From Alphaproteobacteria bacterium (lineage in GTDB: Bacteria > Pseudomonadota > Alphaproteobacteria > Micropepsales > Micropepsaceae), in NCBI GenBank assembly GCA_025350465.1, contig JANXXU010000052.1, forward strand, positions 62,001 through 126,000: a stretch of 64,000 bases of DNA, read 5' to 3'. Below are positions 48,949 to 61,316 of the stretch, piece by piece. How positions within the stretch are numbered: the stretch's first letter is position 1; each line of letters opens with the position of its first letter. Made by a program: the position numbers and the translations under genes. A model generated the notes under the pieces. The model ran no database searches, was not told the DNA's origin, and saw only the letters and a list, made by a program, of their open reading frames with translations.

Positions 48949-51639
48949 ATGATGACGCCAATGAGCGGCATCTTCGGTTCATCGGGCGGAAGGGGCGTTC
49001 CGTCCTTCGATTTTTCTGTGCTTGGCGGATATTATCTCGCGAAGACGAAGTTGCTTGCCGCGCAAAATGCGGCTGCAGCGCCGAGGGCATTGGCCTCCGC
49101 CAATAGCCGGCCGGCCGATTCGGGACTTGCGCCGTGGGACGCAAGCAAGCCACCGCAGAGCGACACAGCGCGGCTGACGCGGGCGCTACAGACGACCTCG
49201 TTCGTCGATTTGCAAAATAGCGCCTTCAACAAGGCCGGTGTGTCGACGGACAGCAAGAAACTCTTTGCGCTGTATACCGGATTGACGAGCCTGCAGGCGC
49301 TGGCTTCGAAGGCGGCAGATGATAAGACCCTGTCCGGCGAGCGCGACGGACTCGACCGGCGGTTTCAAGGCGGCGTCGATCAAGTCAAATCGCTCGTCAC
49401 GGGCCAAGGATTCGACGATCTTACATTGCTGTTCGGCAGCCGGGCTAAAAAAGTCGACAGCGCATTGGCTATCCCGCGCAGCGGCACGATCTATTCGGGC
49501 AACCCGATCGCTCAGGGCGCGTCCAGCAACGCTGTCACAGGACTGACCGGCAACGAGGTCTTCAACGTCTCGATCGCCAAGAGTACCGGAACGTTTGATA
49601 TTCAAATCGATCTCTCTCAAATCGGCGGGCCGCCCACCGTCGACAATATCGTCGCCTATATGAATCAACAGATGCAGGCAGCCGGCGTCGTCACGCGCTT
49701 TTCACGCGATGTGTTCGACGGAAAGACGGATACGTCGCCAAAGAGCTACGGCATCGCCGTGCAAAGCGTCGCGACCGAAAGGGTTTCGTTCTCTGCGCCG
49801 GCAACGGTGCCCGCGGTCTATGTCGCAGGAGACTCGGGCGCCAGCACTGCGCAGACCGCGCAACTCCTGAAGCTGACCGATCAAGGCACGTCCGTCACGA
49901 CCGATTTCAGCGCGCAGATCGCGCCCAAGACCGGCACGTCCGACGCGCGCGGCGCTGCGATCGACGCGCAAGGCAACACCTATGTCGTGGGGACGACAAC
50001 GGGCAATTTGGGCCAAGGCATCGTTCAAGGCAGCCAGGACGTCTTCTTGCGCAAATACGATTCGGCGGGCCAATTGGTGTGGAGTCACATGCTGGGCTCC
50101 TCGACCAGTGCGGACGGGCTTGGTGTCGCCGTCGACGCCAGCGGAAACGTGGCGATCGCAGGGCGGGTTACAGATCGGCTGACGACAACGGCAACGGGTG
50201 GCGGCAACGACAGCTTTGTCTCGAAATACGATTCACAGGGCAATGAGATCTTCACCCGTCAGATCGCGCCTGTTGTCGACGATCAGGCGAACGCACTTTC
50301 GTTCGGAGCCGACGGGTCGCTCTACGTCGCTGGGCAGACCAAAGGCTCGATCACGTCCGGGACGGCGTCAGCCGGCGGAACGGACGCCTATCTTCAAAAG
50401 CTTACGGCGAAGGGGGCGCTCGTCTACACGCGTCAACTTGGCGGCAGCGGCGACGATCGCGCGAATGCCGTCAGTGTGGATGGCGACGGCAACGTCGTAT
50501 TGGCGACAGTGGAATCCGGCGCAGGCGTCGTCCGCAAGTTCGCGCCCGACGACGGAACGAGCGCCGCGATCTGGCAAATGAACCTAGGCGATCTGGGCAC
50601 CGGAACAATTGGCGGAATCGCGCTCGACAACGGTGCGGTCTATGTCAGCGGTTCGACAACGAACGCCAATTTGACTGCCGGCGGCCAGGCGACAATCGCT
50701 TCGCCCCACAACGGCGGTTCGGACGGCTTTGTCATGAAGATCGCCGACGCGGGCCAGAGCGCATCGGCGAGCTTCGTTTCTTACGTCGGCACCGGCGCAA
50801 GCGACAGCGCCGCCAACGTGGTCGTCAACAACGGCGACATCTACGTCGCCGGCGCGACGAACGGCTCCCTCACCGGCGGCACTGCGCCGTCGGCATCGAA
50901 TGCCTATGTGGCGAAACTCGACGACACCGGTGCGCAAGTATGGGTCCACCAATACGCAGGCAGCGCCGGCACCGGCGCGGCGAGGTCCATAGCCATCGAT
51001 CCGCAGGGCGGTTCGGTGCTCGATACTTTGGGATTGCCACGCGGCGCCATATCGCTCGATCCATCGCGCGATGTCACGGCGCAATCCAGCGCTCGCGCGG
51101 GCGACTTTTTCTACGTTTCCGTCAATGGTCTCGATCCGCACCGGGTTACGGTCGAGGCCGGTGACACGCTGCGCTCTCTCGCGACGCGGATTGCCGGAAC
51201 GTTGGCGCTAAAAGGAACAGCAAAGGTAACGCACGGTGCGGCGGGCGACGAGCTGACCATTCAAGCGAACGCCGGGTCTGTCATCGAACTCAAGCGCGGC
51301 GATAAGAGTTTCGACGCGCTCGCGGGCCTCGGCATCGAACCGGGCAAGCTCTACAACACGACGAGCGCGCAAGCGACCGGAGCGACGGCCAAAGACAAAA
51401 TCGTGTTTGCCTTGGGTCTCACACCGACGATGTCGTTGAGCACGCAATCGCACGCGCGAACGGTCGTCGCCAGTATCAATCAGGCGCTGACCGCGATCCG
51501 CGGCGCCTATCAAGCGTTGACGTCGCCGGCCTCTACGGCGACAGCTTCGACAACGAGCACTGCGGTACCGGCCAACGTGACGCGTCAGCTCGCGAGCTAT
51601 CAAGCGGCGCTCGCGATATTCGGCGGATCGACCGGCTAG
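48949..51639 (+). CDS. Large flagellar-like protein with inserted beta-propeller repeats
   Basis: An 896-residue protein with no signal peptide. The N-terminal part (to about 260) and the C-terminal part (about 690-890) resemble flagellar hook-associated and flagellin-like segments, for example ARAGDFFYVSVNGLDPHRVTVEAGDTLRSLATRIA. Between them (about 330-685) are roughly five repeats of the SBBP/propeller kind: YVVGTTTGNLG, DVFLRKYDSAGQLVWSH, NDSFVSKYDSQGNEIFTRQ. Overall it recalls Caulobacter FlaEY from memory, not from a search. It starts ATG 48949 with no ideal Shine-Dalgarno. The Caulobacter comparison suggests a flagellar role; the role here is unproven. Confidence 0.62.
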   Translation: MMTPMSGIFGSSGGRGVPSFDFSVLGGYYLAKTKLLAAQNAAAAPRALASANSRPADSGLAPWDASKPPQSDTARLTRALQTTSFVDLQNSAFNKAGVSTDSKKLFALYTGLTSLQALASKAADDKTLSGERDGLDRRFQGGVDQVKSLVTGQGFDDLTLLFGSRAKKVDSALAIPRSGTIYSGNPIAQGASSNAVTGLTGNEVFNVSIAKSTGTFDIQIDLSQIGGPPTVDNIVAYMNQQMQAAGVVTRFSRDVFDGKTDTSPKSYGIAVQSVATERVSFSAPATVPAVYVAGDSGASTAQTAQLLKLTDQGTSVTTDFSAQIAPKTGTSDARGAAIDAQGNTYVVGTTTGNLGQGIVQGSQDVFLRKYDSAGQLVWSHMLGSSTSADGLGVAVDASGNVAIAGRVTDRLTTTATGGGNDSFVSKYDSQGNEIFTRQIAPVVDDQANALSFGADGSLYVAGQTKGSITSGTASAGGTDAYLQKLTAKGALVYTRQLGGSGDDRANAVSVDGDGNVVLATVESGAGVVRKFAPDDGTSAAIWQMNLGDLGTGTIGGIALDNGAVYVSGSTTNANLTAGGQATIASPHNGGSDGFVMKIADAGQSASASFVSYVGTGASDSAANVVVNNGDIYVAGATNGSLTGGTAPSASNAYVAKLDDTGAQVWVHQYAGSAGTGAARSIAIDPQGGSVLDTLGLPRGAISLDPSRDVTAQSSARAGDFFYVSVNGLDPHRVTVEAGDTLRSLATRIAGTLALKGTAKVTHGAAGDELTIQANAGSVIELKRGDKSFDALAGLGIEPGKLYNTTSAQATGATAKDKIVFALGLTPTMSLSTQSHARTVVASINQALTAIRGAYQALTSPASTATASTTSTAVPANVTRQLASYQAALAIFGGSTG

Positions 51640-53282: not shown

Positions 53283-54017
53283 TCACCGATGGGTCGAATT
53301 GATCTTCGAGGTGAATTCTCTGAACTCTTGAGCCGACATTGTGCTGTCGCCGGAAATCCTCAACCGGGGCGACGCCGGCGGCGTATCGAAAGCGATAGAG
53401 CGGACGTTGACGGTCGCGCCGCGAAATTCCGGCGGAAGTTGCTGTGCAAGGTCGATCGTGTGGGTCTTGAAGACTTTCGACGAGGCAAATTTTAGGAGGG
53501 CGGCAGAGGTGCCATCAATTGCGCATGGCTCCGAGTTCGCCCCGCGAATATCCACAATGACCCGCGAACCGGCCACAGAGAGCGCGATGATCGACGAACA
53601 AGCAATGTCGGCGGGCAGCTCCATCGGCGCGCCGCCGTTTATGCACAATCGTTTCGCGTAGTGAATGCGCAAGTCGTAACCAAGAGTCGTTGCGCTGGTT
53701 AGTCTGGCGGCGGCGTCGCGCACGCGGAGCAAATCGCCACAAGGTTTTGCCTTATCGAGCGCAGCAGCCGACAGCGTCCTGATATCCCTCAACACCGAAC
53801 CGACGTCGACGATCAGGGATAACCTTACGCGGTATGTTCCGTCTGCGTCCGGCGATGCCTGCCAGGTTAGATGCGATGGCAGCGTCAAATGCGCGGCACC
53901 GACTTTTGGCCGCGCAACGAAGTCCCTGCTGCCGTCCGTCTCGGCGTGGGCAGCGCAAACAAGAAGCGGCAAGAGAAGGAATGCGATTGCTCTGAGCATG
54001 GAACACTCGATCTTCAT
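53283..54017 (-). CDS. Secreted protein of unknown function
   Basis: A 244-residue protein from ATG 54017, or 238 from ATG 53999; the second has an obvious signal peptide (MLRAIAFLLLPLLVCAAHA) and is equally plausible. The mature part is Asp/Ala/Leu-rich (SRDFVARPKVGAAHLTLPSHLTWQASPDADGTYRVRLSLIVDVG) with four cysteines, probably two disulfides. No family recognised. It is convergent with the acyl-CoA synthetase, 20 bp apart. The 278-bp gap towards flbY (54018-54294) shows no clear promoter; a TTAA at 54171 lacks a partner. Confidence 0.6.
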   Translation of the reverse strand: MKIECSMLRAIAFLLLPLLVCAAHAETDGSRDFVARPKVGAAHLTLPSHLTWQASPDADGTYRVRLSLIVDVGSVLRDIRTLSAAALDKAKPCGDLLRVRDAAARLTSATTLGYDLRIHYAKRLCINGGAPMELPADIACSSIIALSVAGSRVIVDIRGANSEPCAIDGTSAALLKFASSKVFKTHTIDLAQQLPPEFRGATVNVRSIAFDTPPASPRLRISGDSTMSAQEFREFTSKINSTHR

Positions 54018-54294
54018 TCGCCTGCGCCGGACCCCCGGGAATGGAGCGCGTCGAGCGAGTTCGTTGCTCCAATAAGACACGGCTTGCCGTAAGGATCCGA
54101 TTAAATCGCGGTAGCAATGAAATGGAGCAAGGCCGAAGGCACTTCCAGATTGGCCCGCAAATTTTGGTTAAGGACAGGTGCTTGGCGGAATTGAGCCGTT
54201 TGCGCGAATGCGCGAAACTCAAGGCTCGTCATGTTGCGACGGAAGTGCCGAATGGTGCGCCTTTGAGTTGTAGCTCGCCCGCGCGGTGGCGTCT

Positions 54295-54729
54295 TCAGAT
54301 CGTCTGATTGAATGTCATCGCCGACGCGGCGGCCGTCGCAGGCTTTGCGAACGAACCGGCCTTCGCGTAGGTCGTCGGCGTTTGGCGCGACGCCACTTCG
54401 TCGGCGATCGCCTTGACCAAACCCTCTGTGACATGGCGGAAACGGGCGAGGAGCCGGCTCTCTTCTTTGAGTGCGAGGCGCAGTTTCTCGGTTGCGGCGG
54501 TCAGGCGGTTCTTTGCTTCGCTGCCGATGGAGTTCAAGCCGACGTCGCGTTTGAAGGCGGCGCAACGTTTGGTGTAGAGCGCGAGCGACAATGCGCGCTC
54601 GTCGTCGTTGACATTGAGCGCGGCCGGGCGACTTCCTTTGAGGATCGCGAGTTCGCGCGTGACGAGCGCGGTCAGGCGCTCGGTCAGCTGGATCAGCTCT
54701 TCGACCTGCATGTTTGCGGCGCTTGTCAT
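54295..54729 (-). CDS. flbY: FlbY/FlgN-like flagellar protein
   Basis: A 144-residue helical protein. MQVEELIQLTERLTALVTRELAILKGSRPAALNVNDDERALSLALYTKRCAAFKRDV looks like a small flagellar export chaperone of the FlgN type, which in Caulobacter is named FlbY and lies next to flgI. In FlgN the long helix pairs with hook-associated proteins. The ATG overlaps the stop of the rod-binding gene (4 bp) in the flgI operon. The name comes from position and shape, not from a close match I can recall. Confidence 0.65.
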   Translation of the reverse strand: MTSAANMQVEELIQLTERLTALVTRELAILKGSRPAALNVNDDERALSLALYTKRCAAFKRDVGLNSIGSEAKNRLTAATEKLRLALKEESRLLARFRHVTEGLVKAIADEVASRQTPTTYAKAGSFAKPATAAASAMTFNQTI

Positions 54730-55037
54730 TGACGGCCCTGCTCCTGCATGGCGATCATCTCGCGCTTGACGGAGGCAGCGAGCCCTATGCCGCCCTGATT
54801 GGCGATTTGTTTGCCGATGTCTTGAATCATCAGTGAACGGAAGACCTTCTCGCCGCTGCCGCCACCGAATTGTCCGTCGGTCGGCACATCAGACCACATT
54901 TGCTCGAACATCTGGGAAATGAACACGGCTTCGAAGTCCCGCGCGGCTTTGTCGATCGCGCGAATGTCGCCCTTGGGAGCGTGCGGCGCCTGAACGCCGG
55001 TGCCCATACGAGCGAGATCGAGTGATCCCATATCCAT
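54726..55037 (-). CDS. Rod-binding (FlgJ N-domain/CheL-like) flagellar protein
   Basis: A 103-residue stand-alone rod-binding domain: AIDKAARDFEAVFISQMFEQMWSDVPTDGQFGGGSGEKVFRSLMIQDIGKQIANQGGIGLAASVKREM. It corresponds to the N-terminal half of FlgJ, with no muramidase domain. Caulobacter has a similar protein, called CheL, next to flgI. It probably caps or assembles the rod. It starts 1 bp before the flgI stop, in the same operon. Confidence 0.85.
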   Translation of the reverse strand: MDMGSLDLARMGTGVQAPHAPKGDIRAIDKAARDFEAVFISQMFEQMWSDVPTDGQFGGGSGEKVFRSLMIQDIGKQIANQGGIGLAASVKREMIAMQEQGRQ

Positions 55038-55038
55038 C

Positions 55039-56157
55039 TCACATCACCTGAATTTCGGCTTGGAGAGCGCCGGCGGCCTTAATCGCCTGCAGGATCGCGA
55101 TCATATCGCGCGGACCGACGCCCAACGCGTTCAGGCCGTTGACCAATTGCTGAAGGCTGACGCCGGAGCGAACCAGCGCGAGCTTGCGGTCATGCGAATC
55201 CTGGATCTCGATTTGCGTTTGTGGCGTGACTTTCGTCTCGCCTTGGCTGAAGGGTTCGGGTTGGGAGACTTGCGGCAACTCGGTGATGCGAATGGTCAAA
55301 TTGCCCTGAGCTATCGCCACCGTCGAGACGCGCACGTCGGAGCCCATCACAATGATTCCAGATGCTTCGTCGACAACGACTTTCGCCGGGAGATCGGGCT
55401 CGACGCGCAGCTGCTCGATATCCGTCAGCAGGCGGACGATATTGCCTGTGTAGCCCTGAGGTATGGCGACGCGCACGGTCGCGGGGTCAGCTGCGGCGGC
55501 GGTGGGCGCGCCGATGAAAGTGTTGATGGAGTCGGCGACGCGTTGGGCGGTCGTCAAATCCGGGTTGCGCAATGCGAGGCGCAATGAGGTCATCGATGCG
55601 AGGTCGAAATGTATCTCGCGCTCGACGATCGCGCCGGCGGAAATGCGGCCGCTTGTCGGGACACCGCGCGTCACGGTTTCGGCTTGGCCTTGAGCGGTGA
55701 ACCCGCTGATCGCGATTTGACCCTGAGCGACGGCGTAGATGTTGCTGTCGGCGGCGAGGAGCGGCGTTACCAGCAAGGTGCCGCCCTGCAGGCTCTTCGC
55801 ATCGCCGAGTGCGCTGACGGTGACGTCGATGTGCGAACCCTGCGTTGCGAACGGCGGCAAGTTCGCAGTCACCATGACGGCGGCAACGTTTCCGGTCGAT
55901 AGATTGGCGCCGCGCGTGTTTACGCCAAGGCGTTCCAGCATGGCCTGCAAGCTTTGCAGCGTGAACGCCGCATTGCGGAGGGAGTCGCCGGTGCCGTTCA
56001 AGCCAACCACAAGGCCGTAACCGACGAGCATGTTTTCGCGTACGCCCTCAACGTCGGCGACGTCCTTGATACGGGAGAAGGCGGCGGCGGTGGTGCTCAG
56101 AACCGGCGCTAGGCTCAAGTTCAACGCGAGCGCGATCGTCAGCGTACGGCGCAACAT
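55039..56157 (-). CDS. flgI: FlgI, flagellar P-ring protein
   Basis: Forms the periplasmic P ring, a bearing around the flagellar rod in the peptidoglycan layer. The 372 residues begin with a signal peptide (MLRRTLTIALALNLSLAPVLSTTAAA). RIKDVADVEGVRENMLVGYGLVVGLNGTGDSL and GNVAAVMVTANLPPFATQGSHIDVTVSALGDAKSLQGGTLL are characteristic. It is the first gene of a minus-strand operon with the rod-binding protein and FlbY, and is divergent from fliX. Confidence 0.96.
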   Translation of the reverse strand: MLRRTLTIALALNLSLAPVLSTTAAAFSRIKDVADVEGVRENMLVGYGLVVGLNGTGDSLRNAAFTLQSLQAMLERLGVNTRGANLSTGNVAAVMVTANLPPFATQGSHIDVTVSALGDAKSLQGGTLLVTPLLAADSNIYAVAQGQIAISGFTAQGQAETVTRGVPTSGRISAGAIVEREIHFDLASMTSLRLALRNPDLTTAQRVADSINTFIGAPTAAAADPATVRVAIPQGYTGNIVRLLTDIEQLRVEPDLPAKVVVDEASGIIVMGSDVRVSTVAIAQGNLTIRITELPQVSQPEPFSQGETKVTPQTQIEIQDSHDRKLALVRSGVSLQQLVNGLNALGVGPRDMIAILQAIKAAGALQAEIQVM

Positions 56158-56389: not shown

Positions 56390-56842
56390 ATGAAGATCGA
56401 AGGGCCACGTCCGGTCGACAGCACGCGCTTCGCGCGTGCACAACGAGCCGGCGGCTCAAGCACATTCACACCCGAAATGCCTCACGAGGCGCGCGCAACC
56501 GCGCAAGCCGCGGTGTCCATGCCCTTGACCGCCATCGATACTCTTATTGCACTGCAAGAAGTCCCAGATCTCCTGGCCGGCCGGAGCAAAGCCGCGCGTC
56601 GGGGTCGCGACATGCTCGACTTGCTTGAAGATATTCGCGACGGGTTGTTGCAAGGCGGCATTTCAAGGGCGACTCTGCATCGGCTCCTGCAGCTTGTGAA
56701 TGTCAAGCGGGAAGAATTCGCGGATCCCGGGCTCTCTGCGCTACTCGACGACATCGAGCTTAGGGCCCGCGTCGAGCTCGCAAAATTTCAATTTGCGGAG
56801 GCGAATTCGAGCGATCCCGCAAATGCCGCGAATTCGTCATAA
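56390..56842 (+). CDS. fliX: FliX, flagellar assembly regulator
   Basis: In Caulobacter FliX senses assembly of the early flagellar structure and controls the sigma-54 activator FlbD. The 150 residues include the family C-terminal half RGRDMLDLLEDIRDGLLQGGISRATLHRLLQLV. ATG 56390 has GAAGG 2-7 bp upstream. It is divergent from flgI and followed by dksA 104 bp later. I could not see FlbD in this window. Confidence 0.85.
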   Translation: MKIEGPRPVDSTRFARAQRAGGSSTFTPEMPHEARATAQAAVSMPLTAIDTLIALQEVPDLLAGRSKAARRGRDMLDLLEDIRDGLLQGGISRATLHRLLQLVNVKREEFADPGLSALLDDIELRARVELAKFQFAEANSSDPANAANSS

Positions 56843-57425: not shown

Positions 57426-58172
57426 TCAGAACGGAAAGAGGATGTCCACGACCTGTTGGCCGTAGCGTGGCTGCTGCACATCGGTCAGCTGGCCGCGACC
57501 GCCGTAAGAGATGCGGGCTTCAGCCATCTGCGTGTGCTTCACTTCGTTCGTGGCGCTGATGTCTTCCGGACGCACGATACCGGTGACCGTCAAGTCGCGG
57601 ATTTCGAAATTCACGCGCACTTCCTGATGACCTTGGATGACCAAATTGCCGTTCGGCAGAACCTGCGAGACGACAGCGGCGACCGTGAGCGCGACTTTTT
57701 CCTTGCGGTTGACGGAGCCTGCGCCTTGCGTGGAGCTGTCACTACCGAGGGCAATCGCCTTGGTCGGGTCATAACCTCCGGGCAAGAGTTGTCCGGCGGC
57801 TTGCTCCAAACCCAGCAAACTCGTGACGTCGGCCTTTTCAGTGCCCGTGCGACTGCGCGCGGTTTGGTTCGACAACTCCGCCTTGTCCGAGATGTCGATC
57901 AGTACGGTTAGGATGTCACCGACTTTCGAGGCGCGTTGATCCTTGAAAAAGGAGCGCGAGCCGGCGGCCCAAAGCGAATTTGATTGATAGACAGTCGGCT
58001 CTTGAGGCGCCATCGGCAGCGCGATTTGGCGCTGGCTGGAACGTGGACTGCCGCCCATCGGTGACAGCTGCGGCGGTTCGCCCACACGGTCGAGGCGGTC
58101 CATTGTCGTGCACGAGGCGAGGTCAAACGCGACGATCCCAACGAACACGAAGCGGCAAAGGTCGTTACGCAT
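57426..58172 (-). CDS. flgH: FlgH, flagellar L-ring lipoprotein
   Basis: Outer-membrane ring around the distal rod. The 248 residues have a lipoprotein signal with LASC (Cys21) and family segments SNSLWAAGSRSFFKDQRASKVGDILTVLIDISDKAELSNQTARSRTG, PNGNLVIQGHQEVRVNFE and DISATNEVKHTQMAEARISYGGRGQLTDVQQPRYGQQ. Last gene of the operon, 19 bp after flgA. Terminated at 57377-57396. Confidence 0.94.
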   Translation of the reverse strand: MRNDLCRFVFVGIVAFDLASCTTMDRLDRVGEPPQLSPMGGSPRSSQRQIALPMAPQEPTVYQSNSLWAAGSRSFFKDQRASKVGDILTVLIDISDKAELSNQTARSRTGTEKADVTSLLGLEQAAGQLLPGGYDPTKAIALGSDSSTQGAGSVNRKEKVALTVAAVVSQVLPNGNLVIQGHQEVRVNFEIRDLTVTGIVRPEDISATNEVKHTQMAEARISYGGRGQLTDVQQPRYGQQVVDILFPF

Positions 58173-58191
58173 TACAAAACCTTTCAGCGTT

Positions 58192-58938
58192 TTATTGTTG
58201 CGCGACGGCCATCGCCGCCGGCGAGGATTGCACCGATACGGTTCCGGCGCCGCTCACGCGGCCTTCGATCGTGCGGCGCGAACGGGCATTGAGTACCGGG
58301 ACCACCTCACCCTTGCCGCCGTCGGCCAACGCTTGACCGGCCGCCGTCAATTCAATTCCCGGTAAAGCGAAAACGATCGTGACGAGCTCGCCCTTTCTTA
58401 CGATCACCGGTTTCTTCACATCGAAGGCGAAGATCGGTTGGCGAGCGTGGAGTGGGCGGCGCGCCGCCTGACCGGTCAGCATTTCGGCGCTGGTGACGAG
58501 CGTCGCGCTCGCACGTTCCGCTGGGAGCTCGATGGTCACCAGATCTTGGTCGCCGATCATTTCGCCTGAAGCAAGATCATGAGCCAAAGCGGGGACATCG
58601 ATGACCGGATAGGCCATACCCGTTGCGTTCGTGATTTGAAGTTGGCCGCTTGGGCCGGCGTATGTAAGGCTCGCGGCGAACACCTGACGCGCGGCATCAA
58701 AGGTGAGGGCGGCGAGGTCGAAGCGACCCTGAGCCGCAGCAGGCAATGTCAGCACAAACGCCGGATCGGCAAACGCGACGTGGTATCGGCCGGCGACCGG
58801 GATGCGTGCGGCGAGCGTTTCGGCAATTTTCGTCGCGATGGTGTCGCCGGCAACGATCGTCGATGGCGCGACCGTTTCGGCCCGGGCGATGCCGAGCCAA
58901 GCCAGGGCGATGGAAAGTGCGAGAATAATTTTGCGCAT
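58192..58938 (-). CDS. flgA: FlgA, P-ring assembly chaperone
   Basis: Periplasmic protein needed for P-ring assembly. The 248 residues have a signal peptide (MRKIILALSIALAWLGIARA), a variable middle and a C-terminal SAF domain (RRPLHARQPIFAFDVKKPVIVRKGELVTIVFALPGIELTAAGQALADGGKGEVVPVLNARSRRTIEGRVSG), as in other FlgA proteins. It lies between flgH and flgG. Confidence 0.9.
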   Translation of the reverse strand: MRKIILALSIALAWLGIARAETVAPSTIVAGDTIATKIAETLAARIPVAGRYHVAFADPAFVLTLPAAAQGRFDLAALTFDAARQVFAASLTYAGPSGQLQITNATGMAYPVIDVPALAHDLASGEMIGDQDLVTIELPAERASATLVTSAEMLTGQAARRPLHARQPIFAFDVKKPVIVRKGELVTIVFALPGIELTAAGQALADGGKGEVVPVLNARSRRTIEGRVSGAGTVSVQSSPAAMAVAQQ

Positions 58939-58951
58939 GATCTACGTTTCC

Positions 58952-59743
58952 TTATCCCTGCGACAAATGCGCCGTCATCTGCAGCATTTCGTCGGAGGCC
59001 GTGATGACCTTCGAATTCATTTCATAGGCGCGTTGCGCCGTGATTAGCGACGTGATCTCCGCCACGGCATTGACGTTGGAGGTCTCGAGAAAGCCTTGCA
59101 TGATCGTGCCGAAACCGGTGGAGCCGGGTGTGCCCGTCTGCGCCGTGCCGGAGGCCGCGGTCTCGAGGAATAGATTTGATCCCTGTGCTTCAAGACCCGC
59201 CTCGTTGGCAAACACGGCAAGATCAAGCTGACCGACGATCTGTTCCGCCGTCTGTCCGGCAAGCTTCACCGAGACTTGTCCTTGGGCGTTGATCGTAACG
59301 CCGGTTGCATCTTGTGGAATGCTGACGCCCGGTTCGACGACATATCCGTCGGGCGTAACGATCTGACCCTGGGCGCTCAGCGCGAAGGAACCCGCCCGGG
59401 TGTAAGCCGCTTGGCCTGTCGGCATGCGGATGCGGAAGAAGCCCTTACCCTGAACCGCAAGATCGTAGGTGTTCTGCGTCGAGTTCAGATTGCCCTGTGA
59501 CATCAGGCGATAGACCGAGCCGGTTTTCACACCGGAGCCAACCTGGATGCCGGTCGGGATGATCGTGCCCTGATCGGACGAGGCAGCGCCCATGCGCTCG
59601 ACGTTTTGATAGAGCAGATCTTGGAATTCCGCACGCTGGCTCTTGAATCCGGTCGTGTTCATGTTGGCGATGTTGTTCGAGATGACCTCGACGTTCAGCT
59701 GCTGAGCCAACATGCCTGTCGATGCGATACTGAGCGATCTCAT
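58952..59743 (-). CDS. flgG: FlgG, distal rod protein
   Basis: Makes the distal part of the flagellar rod. The 263 residues show the rod/hook N-terminal motif MRSLSIASTGMLAQQLNVEVISNNIANMNTTGFKSQRAEF and the C-terminal helix EFRAYEMN-like segment (VNAVAEITSLITAQRAYEMNSKVITASDEMLQ). It is exported by the flagellar type III apparatus, so has no Sec signal. flgA follows 13 bp later. Confidence 0.95.
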   Translation of the reverse strand: MRSLSIASTGMLAQQLNVEVISNNIANMNTTGFKSQRAEFQDLLYQNVERMGAASSDQGTIIPTGIQVGSGVKTGSVYRLMSQGNLNSTQNTYDLAVQGKGFFRIRMPTGQAAYTRAGSFALSAQGQIVTPDGYVVEPGVSIPQDATGVTINAQGQVSVKLAGQTAEQIVGQLDLAVFANEAGLEAQGSNLFLETAASGTAQTGTPGSTGFGTIMQGFLETSNVNAVAEITSLITAQRAYEMNSKVITASDEMLQMTAHLSQG

Positions 59744-59764
59744 GGTTCGCGCTTTCCTCTATCC

Positions 59765-60493
59765 TTAAACCTTGACGTCGCCGAGACGCTGGACCGCTCG
59801 GCGAATGATCTCGTCGGTGGCGTTCAACGTTTCGGTCGAATGCTGATATGCGCGCTGCACTTCGATCATCTTGGTCATTTCGACGACCGGCTCGACGTTC
59901 GAACGCTCGATCATCCCTTGCATTACGCGGGCGTTTGTCGCCGGCGTTGCGGGGGCGTTGGCGCTGTAAAGATTCTTGCCCTCTTTGCTGAGCGCGTTGG
60001 CCGCGAAGGACACGACCCTGAGCTTGCCGGCGGCGCCTTGGCGCGTGCTGACGGTACCGTCGCGCGCGATCTTGATTTCGCTTTCGCCGGGCGGAATGAC
60101 GATTTCACCGCCGTCCGACAACACCGGGTCGCCATCCGACGTGACCATTTTGCCCTGCGCGTCGAGCTTTAGATGGCCGTCGCGCGTGTAGCGTTCGCCG
60201 GCCGCCGTGTTCACGACCAACAAGCCGTTGCCGTCGATGGCAATATCCAGCGTTCCGCCGGTCTGCTCGAGCGGCCCCGCCGTCATGTCGCGGACAACGC
60301 CCCAATCGCGCACGAACGATACTTCGCTCGGGCCCCCTTGCGGGTTGTCGACCGGCACAAGCAGCTCTTCGAACAACGGCGCTTCGCGCTTGAAACCGGC
60401 CGTGGAGCTGTTCGCGAGATTGTTCGCGATGATCTCCATGTTCCGACGCAATGCCATCTGGGCCGATAGGCCGACGACCAATGAAGTTTCCAT
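59765..60493 (-). CDS. flgF: FlgF, proximal rod protein
   Basis: Rod protein next to FlgG in the basal body. ATG 60493 (242 residues) was chosen because METSLVVGLSAQMALRRNMEIIANNLANSSTAGFKRE is the rod-family start; upstream in-frame codons to 61126 are antisense to fliL and not family-like. The C-terminal VEMTKMIEVQRAYQHSTETLNATDEI matches the hook/rod pattern. It heads the flgF-flgG-flgA-flgH operon. Confidence 0.94.
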   Translation of the reverse strand: METSLVVGLSAQMALRRNMEIIANNLANSSTAGFKREAPLFEELLVPVDNPQGGPSEVSFVRDWGVVRDMTAGPLEQTGGTLDIAIDGNGLLVVNTAAGERYTRDGHLKLDAQGKMVTSDGDPVLSDGGEIVIPPGESEIKIARDGTVSTRQGAAGKLRVVSFAANALSKEGKNLYSANAPATPATNARVMQGMIERSNVEPVVEMTKMIEVQRAYQHSTETLNATDEIIRRAVQRLGDVKV

Positions 60494-60544
60494 AGCGGCC
60501 ACCACTCCGCGCGGACAGAATTTGCTCTCCGCAGCGCAACACCA

Positions 60545-60560
60545 AGCAGCGTGCATGCCA
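60545..60560 (-). promoter_or_regulatory. Sigma-54-type promoter candidate for flgF
   Basis: On the minus strand TGGCATGCACGCTGCT has GG and GC ten bases apart, as required by RpoN (consensus TGGCAC-N5-TTGC). The start site would be about 40 bp before the flgF ATG. An ftr-like dyad lies about 90 bp upstream, where an enhancer would be expected. In Caulobacter the corresponding flgF operon is sigma-54 dependent. Confidence 0.55.
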
Positions 60561-60625
60561 GCGTCGAAAGCCCGGCTTCGTTGGGGTTTGCGAAGTAACA
60601 TCGCGTTAAGACGCAGGAGATGCCG

Positions 60626-60638
60626 GGCAAAATCTGCC
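60626..60638. promoter_or_regulatory. ftr-like dyad between flgF and fliL
   Basis: GGCA (60626-60629) and TGCC (60635-60638) around AAATC, flanked by CCG and GCG, giving a shape like the dyad at 56293-56307 but less perfect. Candidate FlbD enhancer for the flgF promoter. Confidence 0.35.
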
Positions 60639-60719
60639 GCGCGCGAACCCGAAATTAACCAGCGCAGCTGCACTTTCCCCCGGCGGTTACACCTAAAAAT
60701 CTGTACACGGACGGTTCGA

Positions 60720-61316
60720 ATGGCGAAAGACAAAGACGACGCCAAGGCCAAGGACGACGACAAGAAAAAGGTCGCGGAAAAGACCGAAGGCCAAACGGAA
60801 GGCGAGGGCGACGCCGCCGCGGTGAAGCCGAAAGGGCGTTTTGCCTTTCTCAACTTCTCGCGCAAAACGTTGATGTTCGTCGTGGCGCCGGCCGTGCTTG
60901 GCGTGGTCGTGCTTGGAGCGGGCGCGTATTTCTTTTTGTTTTCAGGCGGCGAGCCGCCCAAGGCCGCAAACGGCGCGCCGGGCGCAGCGGCGCAGGTCGC
61001 GATCGAGCATCCGACGTTTGTCGACGTGCCTGAAATCCTGGTCAATCTCGCGACGACCGGCGACAAGCCCGCGTATCTCAAACTTTCCGTTTCGCTCGAA
61101 CTCAAGGGCGGCGAGGAAGCAGCCAAGGCGCTTGAGCCGGTTATGCCGCGCGTCGTCGATCAGTTTCAAACCTATCTGCGTGAATTGCGCGTGGAAGATT
61201 TGAGCGGGTCGGCCGCGATGTTCCGGCTCAAAGAGGAGCTGTTGCGCCGCGTCAATATGGCGATCGAGCCGGTAGAGGTTCGAGACGTCCTGTTCAAAGA
61301 AATGATCGTGCAATAG
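60720..61316 (+). CDS. fliL: FliL, flagellar basal-body membrane protein
   Basis: Inner-membrane protein at the base of the motor, near the stator ring. ATG 60720 (198 residues) starts a Lys/Asp/Glu-rich cytoplasmic tail, one membrane helix (about 50-72 LMFVVAPAVLGVVVLGAGAYFFLF) and the periplasmic FliL domain (HPTFVDVPEILVNLATTGDKPAYLKLSVSLEL). The gap to flgF is 226 bp and holds the divergent control elements. fliM follows by 12 bp. Confidence 0.92.
   Translation: MAKDKDDAKAKDDDKKKVAEKTEGQTEGEGDAAAVKPKGRFAFLNFSRKTLMFVVAPAVLGVVVLGAGAYFFLFSGGEPPKAANGAPGAAAQVAIEHPTFVDVPEILVNLATTGDKPAYLKLSVSLELKGGEEAAKALEPVMPRVVDQFQTYLRELRVEDLSGSAAMFRLKEELLRRVNMAIEPVEVRDVLFKEMIVQ

Follow-up and report, generated by a model that had tools for sequence, protein, structure and literature searches.

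A predicted flagellin-related protein with an inserted seven-bladed propeller in flagellated alphaproteobacteria that lack FliD

Many alphaproteobacteria build flagellar filaments without FliD, whose absence has been reported in Rhizobiaceae (PMC6913195), and an explanation of how these filaments are capped was not found in the literature. The 64,000-nucleotide stretch of DNA analysed here (the window) raises a related question through one gene in a flagellar cluster: what is a protein with flagellar-looking ends and a beta-propeller in its centre, and where would it act? The ORF, at positions 48949-51639 on the forward strand, encodes 896 residues, as an initial sequence-only reading had described, and is present in single copy in its own genome. 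It is real and under purifying selection, with most relatives keeping it at full length and stop-free and with a dN/dS of 0.16 over the whole length against the nearest relative (0.08-0.28 by domain). Translation may begin at Met5 (48961) instead of 48949, because several relatives of the same genus begin at the equivalent MSG.

The middle of the protein (residues 290-689; positions 49816-51015, + strand) is predicted to be a closed seven-bladed propeller of its own. Pfam identifies SBBP (PF06739) in the window protein at 31.7 bits against a cut-off of 20.5 (E 1.4e-7) and in all 21 aligned members of the family, and the NCBIfam LipL53 propeller model also matches the window protein, below its cut-off. 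Seven blade motifs occur at residues 303, 364, 421, 479, 527, 592 and 650, with a 57/58-residue period that, at the best offset in this range, scored above every one of 200 shuffles, and the strand at residues 290-297 probably closes the last blade (velcro). When residues 280-700 were modelled by AF2 together with eight remote SBBP relatives, the model showed seven blades with 28 strands in all (pLDDT 81.6, pTM 0.87). Its best Foldseek match was CylK (E 1e-21, TM 0.77, ∼28% identity), which the family profile matched in the PDB at E 1.5e-72. Thus, of the earlier claim of about five SBBP repeats at residues 330-685, the repeats themselves stood, but they number seven and span residues ∼290-689. 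The structure prediction proposed as a check of the middle gave a closed propeller and no solenoid running on into the ends; a beta-solenoid continuous with the ends was rejected because the model is a separate closed propeller whose best structural match is CylK.

The same seven-bladed SBBP propeller is found in CylK and in LipL53-type proteins (NCBIfam NF047494, 117 bits), but neither is flagellar: CylK, from cyanobacteria, is an alkylating enzyme whose N-terminal half is unrelated, and the LipL53 proteins are Leptospira lipoproteins. The non-propeller half of CylK contributes to its active site, and this half is not shared by the propeller family. Within the family, mean pairwise identity is 0.44 for the propeller and the beta domain that follows it (IN2), compared with 0.34-0.35 for the helical D1 parts at the ends. 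Because the propeller is the best conserved part, the reverse of flagellins, in which the insert is the variable part, its conservation favours a fixed working role over variable display. A PF06739 profile search found no second SBBP protein in the own genome. In another alphaproteobacterium (G042), an SBBP protein (contig C45, 12607-13587) matches the propeller alone, and SBBP repeats by themselves therefore do not identify the propeller-bearing flagellar family.

The ends are less easily recognised. Pfam gives SBBP alone for the window protein, with no flagellar model passed at its ends; PHROGs gave no match at the ends, no relatives of the ends were found among viral contigs, and an AF2 single-sequence model of the whole protein was uninformative on them (pLDDT 36). 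No Pfam flagellin domain above cut-off was among the families listed for the 21 members, and neither FliD_N nor FliD_C gave a Pfam match in these members. Family alignments of 21 and 43 members were run against those of 30 flagellins, 21 FliDs, 18 FlgKs, 18 FlgLs and others by pairwise hhalign, for which the controls weigh more than the E-values themselves. The helical parts of the two ends (residues 66-180 and 812-896), when joined, gave a colinear match to flagellin across 141 columns (prob 93%, E 3e-7), such that residues 112-163 aligned to flagellin 88-139, comprising the second ND1 helix and the FNG.NL turn, and residues 822-886 to flagellin 168-245, in CD1. The N-terminal helical part alone matched flagellin at E 2e-5; because the C-terminal half alone was weak (E 0.0065), the claim of a flagellin D1 rests on the N-terminal match and colinearity. 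As controls, reversed profiles gave no match, and the joined ends did not match profiles of FlgL, FlgK, FlgE, FliD, FlgI, FlgH, FlgG, DksA, FliX, HtrA or HflC. The beta domains gave matches of another type. IN2 matched the FliD IN region (E 2.4e-7), and the same region of one relative (L043) carries Pfam Flagellin_IN above cut-off (E 1e-5). The first such domain, IN1, matched IN2 (prob 87%, E 4e-6) and FlgK (prob 41%, E 2.7e-4).

On this profile evidence, the ends are flagellar, recognisable by profile methods only, and the predicted architecture is D1N - IN1 - propeller - IN2 - D1C. A variable Ala/Ser/Thr-rich tail (residues 1-65; 48949-49143) is presumed to hold the flagellar export signal. 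It is followed by the helical N-terminal D1-like part (residues 66-179; 49144-49485) and IN1 (residues 180-289; 49486-49815), and the propeller is followed by IN2 (residues 690-812; 51016-51384) and the helical C-terminal D1-like part (residues 813-896; 51385-51636), all on the + strand. The hhalign search found no flagellin D0, as nothing aligned to flagellin residues 1-87 or 246-272. The ends had been described beforehand as hook/flagellin-like and a profile search against flagellar families suggested; that search assigned the helices to flagellin D1 and the beta domains to the Flagellin_IN/FliD/FlgK type. The flagellin half of the description is thereby borne out, without a recognised D0, and the hook-protein half is not: FlgE gave no match, though the FlgE alignment was poor.

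Hydropathy analysis found no Sec-like hydrophobic segment at the N-terminus of the propeller protein, in agreement with the earlier claim, whereas FlgI, FlgH, FlgA and HtrA, used as a comparison set, have one. None of the 896 residues is a cysteine, compared with ∼6.7 expected at the window background of 0.75% (p ∼1e-3), and the 43-member family contains only 6 cysteines in 39,016 residues. FlgE, FlgF, FlgG, FlgK, FlgL and both flagellins likewise have none. Because the periplasmic proteins FlgI and HtrA have few cysteines too, the depletion points to life outside the cytoplasm generally. Cysteine depletion and the lack of a Sec signal together suggest the flagellar export apparatus as the natural route for the propeller protein. 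The traits expected of a flagellar type III substrate are thus present (no Sec signal, flagellar linkage and cysteine depletion), and from them we infer export itself.

The flagellar cluster in the window comprises flgN-like, flgJ-type, flgI, fliX, flgH, flgA, flgG, flgF, fliL and fliM genes. The flgN-like gene (54295-54729, - strand; named by context, with no Pfam match) is convergent with the propeller gene and conserved as its neighbour, and beyond it lie the flgJ-type rod-binding gene (54726-55037, -; Pfam and synteny), the P-ring gene flgI (55039-56157, -; Pfam and co-occurrence), fliX, encoding a class II flagellar regulator (56390-56842, +; Pfam), and flgH, flgA, flgG and flgF (57426-61126, -; Pfam). 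Outside the window, the genome encodes FlbT and two flagellins, named by Pfam, and FlgD, FlgE, FlgK, FlgL and FlaF, named from sequence and context. Relatives keep the propeller gene convergent with flgN-flgJ-flgI, and in other families its neighbours are flagellin and flaG genes, which it immediately follows (L126), or sugar-nucleotide genes (L124, L127 and L049). A sigma-54-like -24/-12 pattern was no more frequent than expected by chance, with none upstream of the propeller gene. Between an AMP-ligase gene and flgN lies a 265-residue ORF (53283-54080, -) that was matched solely in the closest relative (L031) and belongs to no Pfam family.

The propeller family tracks flagella. A match to the propeller protein was found in 26 of 61 relatives; within the organism's own family, it is present in 23 of 25 FlgI-positive genomes and in none of 12 FlgI-negative genomes, the two FlgI-positive exceptions being G011 and G024 (a fragment). 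One genome without FlgI (G022) retains a propeller fragment at a locus (L050) where FlgH-like and DksA matches also occur, apparently a decaying flagellar locus. Of 386 genomes sampled across the class, 28, from ∼14 alphaproteobacterial families, have a member of full or nearly full length. FliD_C was found in 89 genomes of this survey, none of them shared with the propeller protein: it is absent from all 28 family-bearing genomes, and FliD_N is absent from all 27 tested, in a search whose three positive controls were all positive. The own genome has neither FliD_N nor FliD_C anywhere. Among 229 FlgI-positive genomes, none has both proteins, 26 have the propeller protein, 84 have FliD and 119 have neither, an exclusivity with a p-value of 4e-6 uncorrected for phylogeny and of 6e-5 when families are counted. 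A universal replacement of FliD was rejected, as 119 of these 229 flagellated genomes have neither protein. Because of these genomes, the cap need not be the propeller protein, and they must have yet another cap, or none.

The family has probably been named before. Sphingomonas FlaEY was named as a possible regulatory protein in a flagellar cluster, Caulobacter FlaE/FlaY were cited as modulating the expression of flagellin and chemotaxis genes, and a Sphingomonas FlaQ mutant showed increased fliC and decreased flgI expression (PMC8921679); Caulobacter flaY has also been called a putative flagellar regulator (PMC3667746). In our analysis, the Caulobacter vibrioides control genome has a match to NF047494, that is, a related SBBP propeller protein, and has neither FliD_N nor FliD_C; the lack of a PF06739 match there is uninformative, since the longer NF047494 model matches. 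A full-length relative (29% identity) lies near flgJ-flgI on a plasmid of Sphingobium. The propeller family is therefore probably the FlaEY/FlaQ family, with Caulobacter FlaEY compared by description, not alignment. Both are alphaproteobacterial flagellar-cluster genes, but FlaEY is described as a regulator, whereas our analysis points to an exported axial protein. Literature searches on FlaYE variants and on flagellins with propellers turned up no relevant papers.

We think it probable that the propeller protein is a flagellum-exported, flagellin-derived axial protein located at the distal filament end or the hook-filament junction. It would have originated in the flagellin/HAP superfamily, keeping a flagellin-type D1 helical body at both ends and a tandem pair of IN-type beta domains of the kind present in FliD and FlgK, with a closed CylK-like propeller between them, an insertion that the adjacent propeller termini would allow. 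Since it has no Sec signal and is encoded with flagellar genes, it would pass unfolded through the flagellar type III apparatus and fold outside the cell, its D1 part docking in few copies on flagellin or hook-associated proteins at one of these two sites. The conserved propeller would be a working part, such as a plate resembling a cap or a surface that binds flagellin, and not a variable decoration. Where a species has no FliD, loss of the protein would disturb filament assembly and so alter flagellin expression indirectly, which may be why FlaEY-type genes were called regulators. The architecture, homology, seven blades, cysteine depletion, linkage and FliD exclusivity form the basis of this axial-protein reading; export, location, low copy number and the role in assembly are what we infer. 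Lining the channel of a filament requires a D0, and against the reading stand the lack of a recognised flagellin-homologous D0 and of a Pfam flagellar model at the ends, the two FlgI-positive genomes of the own family without the protein, and the cysteine poverty of FlgI and HtrA.

Flagellin-type proteins with inserted domains are a known kind, and the display on the filament of a foreign domain inserted into flagellin is established for flagellinolysin (PMC5595980). Like flagellin (FliC/Flj) and flagellinolysin, the propeller protein has D1 parts at both ends and a large inserted domain and is cysteine-free, but it has no recognised D0 and no Pfam flagellin model, its insert is a propeller between two IN domains and its best conserved part, and it is distinct from the ordinary flagellins of the same genome. 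With the FliD cap (HAP2), it shares IN-type beta domains in a helical body, the lack of a Sec signal and cysteine poverty, and the two have mutually exclusive phyletic patterns; unlike FliD, it has no FliD_N/FliD_C match and its helices resemble flagellin, and FliD has no propeller. The family is named and its mechanism unexplained; what is new is the domain combination and the phyletic pattern.

One alternative is that the protein is a cytoplasmic regulator of flagellin synthesis, whose propeller binds flagellins, chaperones or FlbT/FlaF and thereby modulates flagellin genes. The reported modulation by FlaE/FlaY, the fliC and flgI shifts of the FlaQ mutant (PMC8921679) and the naming of flaY as a putative regulator (PMC3667746) are consistent with this idea, as is the lack of a Sec signal. 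However, Pfam found no DNA- or RNA-binding domain, cysteines are nearly gone, as in axial flagellar proteins, and flagellin-D1 and IN domains belong to exported axial proteins. Blocked flagellar assembly commonly alters expression indirectly, which could explain the expression changes, and we regard a cytoplasmic regulator as unlikely.

A minor flagellin-like subunit placed along the filament, showing its propeller as an adhesin, receptor or enzyme, would follow the precedent of flagellinolysin (PMC5595980), and the nearest solved propeller, CylK, is indeed an enzyme. Such filament-wide display is nevertheless rather improbable, given the lack of D0 homology, a propeller better conserved than the D1 parts, a single-copy protein ∼3 times the length of flagellin, and the missing counterpart of the CylK half that contributes to the active site. 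It is also conceivable that the ends look flagellar by chance and that an unrelated secreted propeller protein is linked to flagellar genes, as single-sequence searches give SBBP only and folding the whole protein from its single sequence was uninformative. This is very improbable: each end has its own profile match, the order is right, the controls are clean and L043 has a curated Flagellin_IN match.

Within the axial-protein reading, and as a subset of it, we consider the possibility that the family is the filament end-piece of many alphaproteobacteria that lack FliD, a cap with an evolutionary origin separate from that of FliD. This proposal is tentative and on balance doubtful; the cap would have a flagellin-type body with the two IN domains, the conserved propeller would serve as its plate, and the regulator label would be mistaken. 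For part of the flagellated genomes without FliD, to which it is confined, this propeller-bearing, flagellin-derived protein offers a concrete cap candidate. If this is true, a gene family labelled as regulator becomes a structural component, and its expression phenotype an assembly effect.

The sugar-nucleotide neighbours seen in other families deserve separate mention. At L124, L127 and L049, the propeller gene is divergent from HldE-like, GmhA-like SIS and NAD-epimerase genes of the heptose sugar-nucleotide type (the Pfam results come from the L124 genes only), which suggests a link with flagellin glycosylation. The own genome has a flagellin glycosylation-like cluster on another contig (C16; L120, 7600-15304), which contains genes for a TPR protein, flbT, flaF, two flagellins, flaG, a DegT-type aminotransferase and a PseB-like gene.
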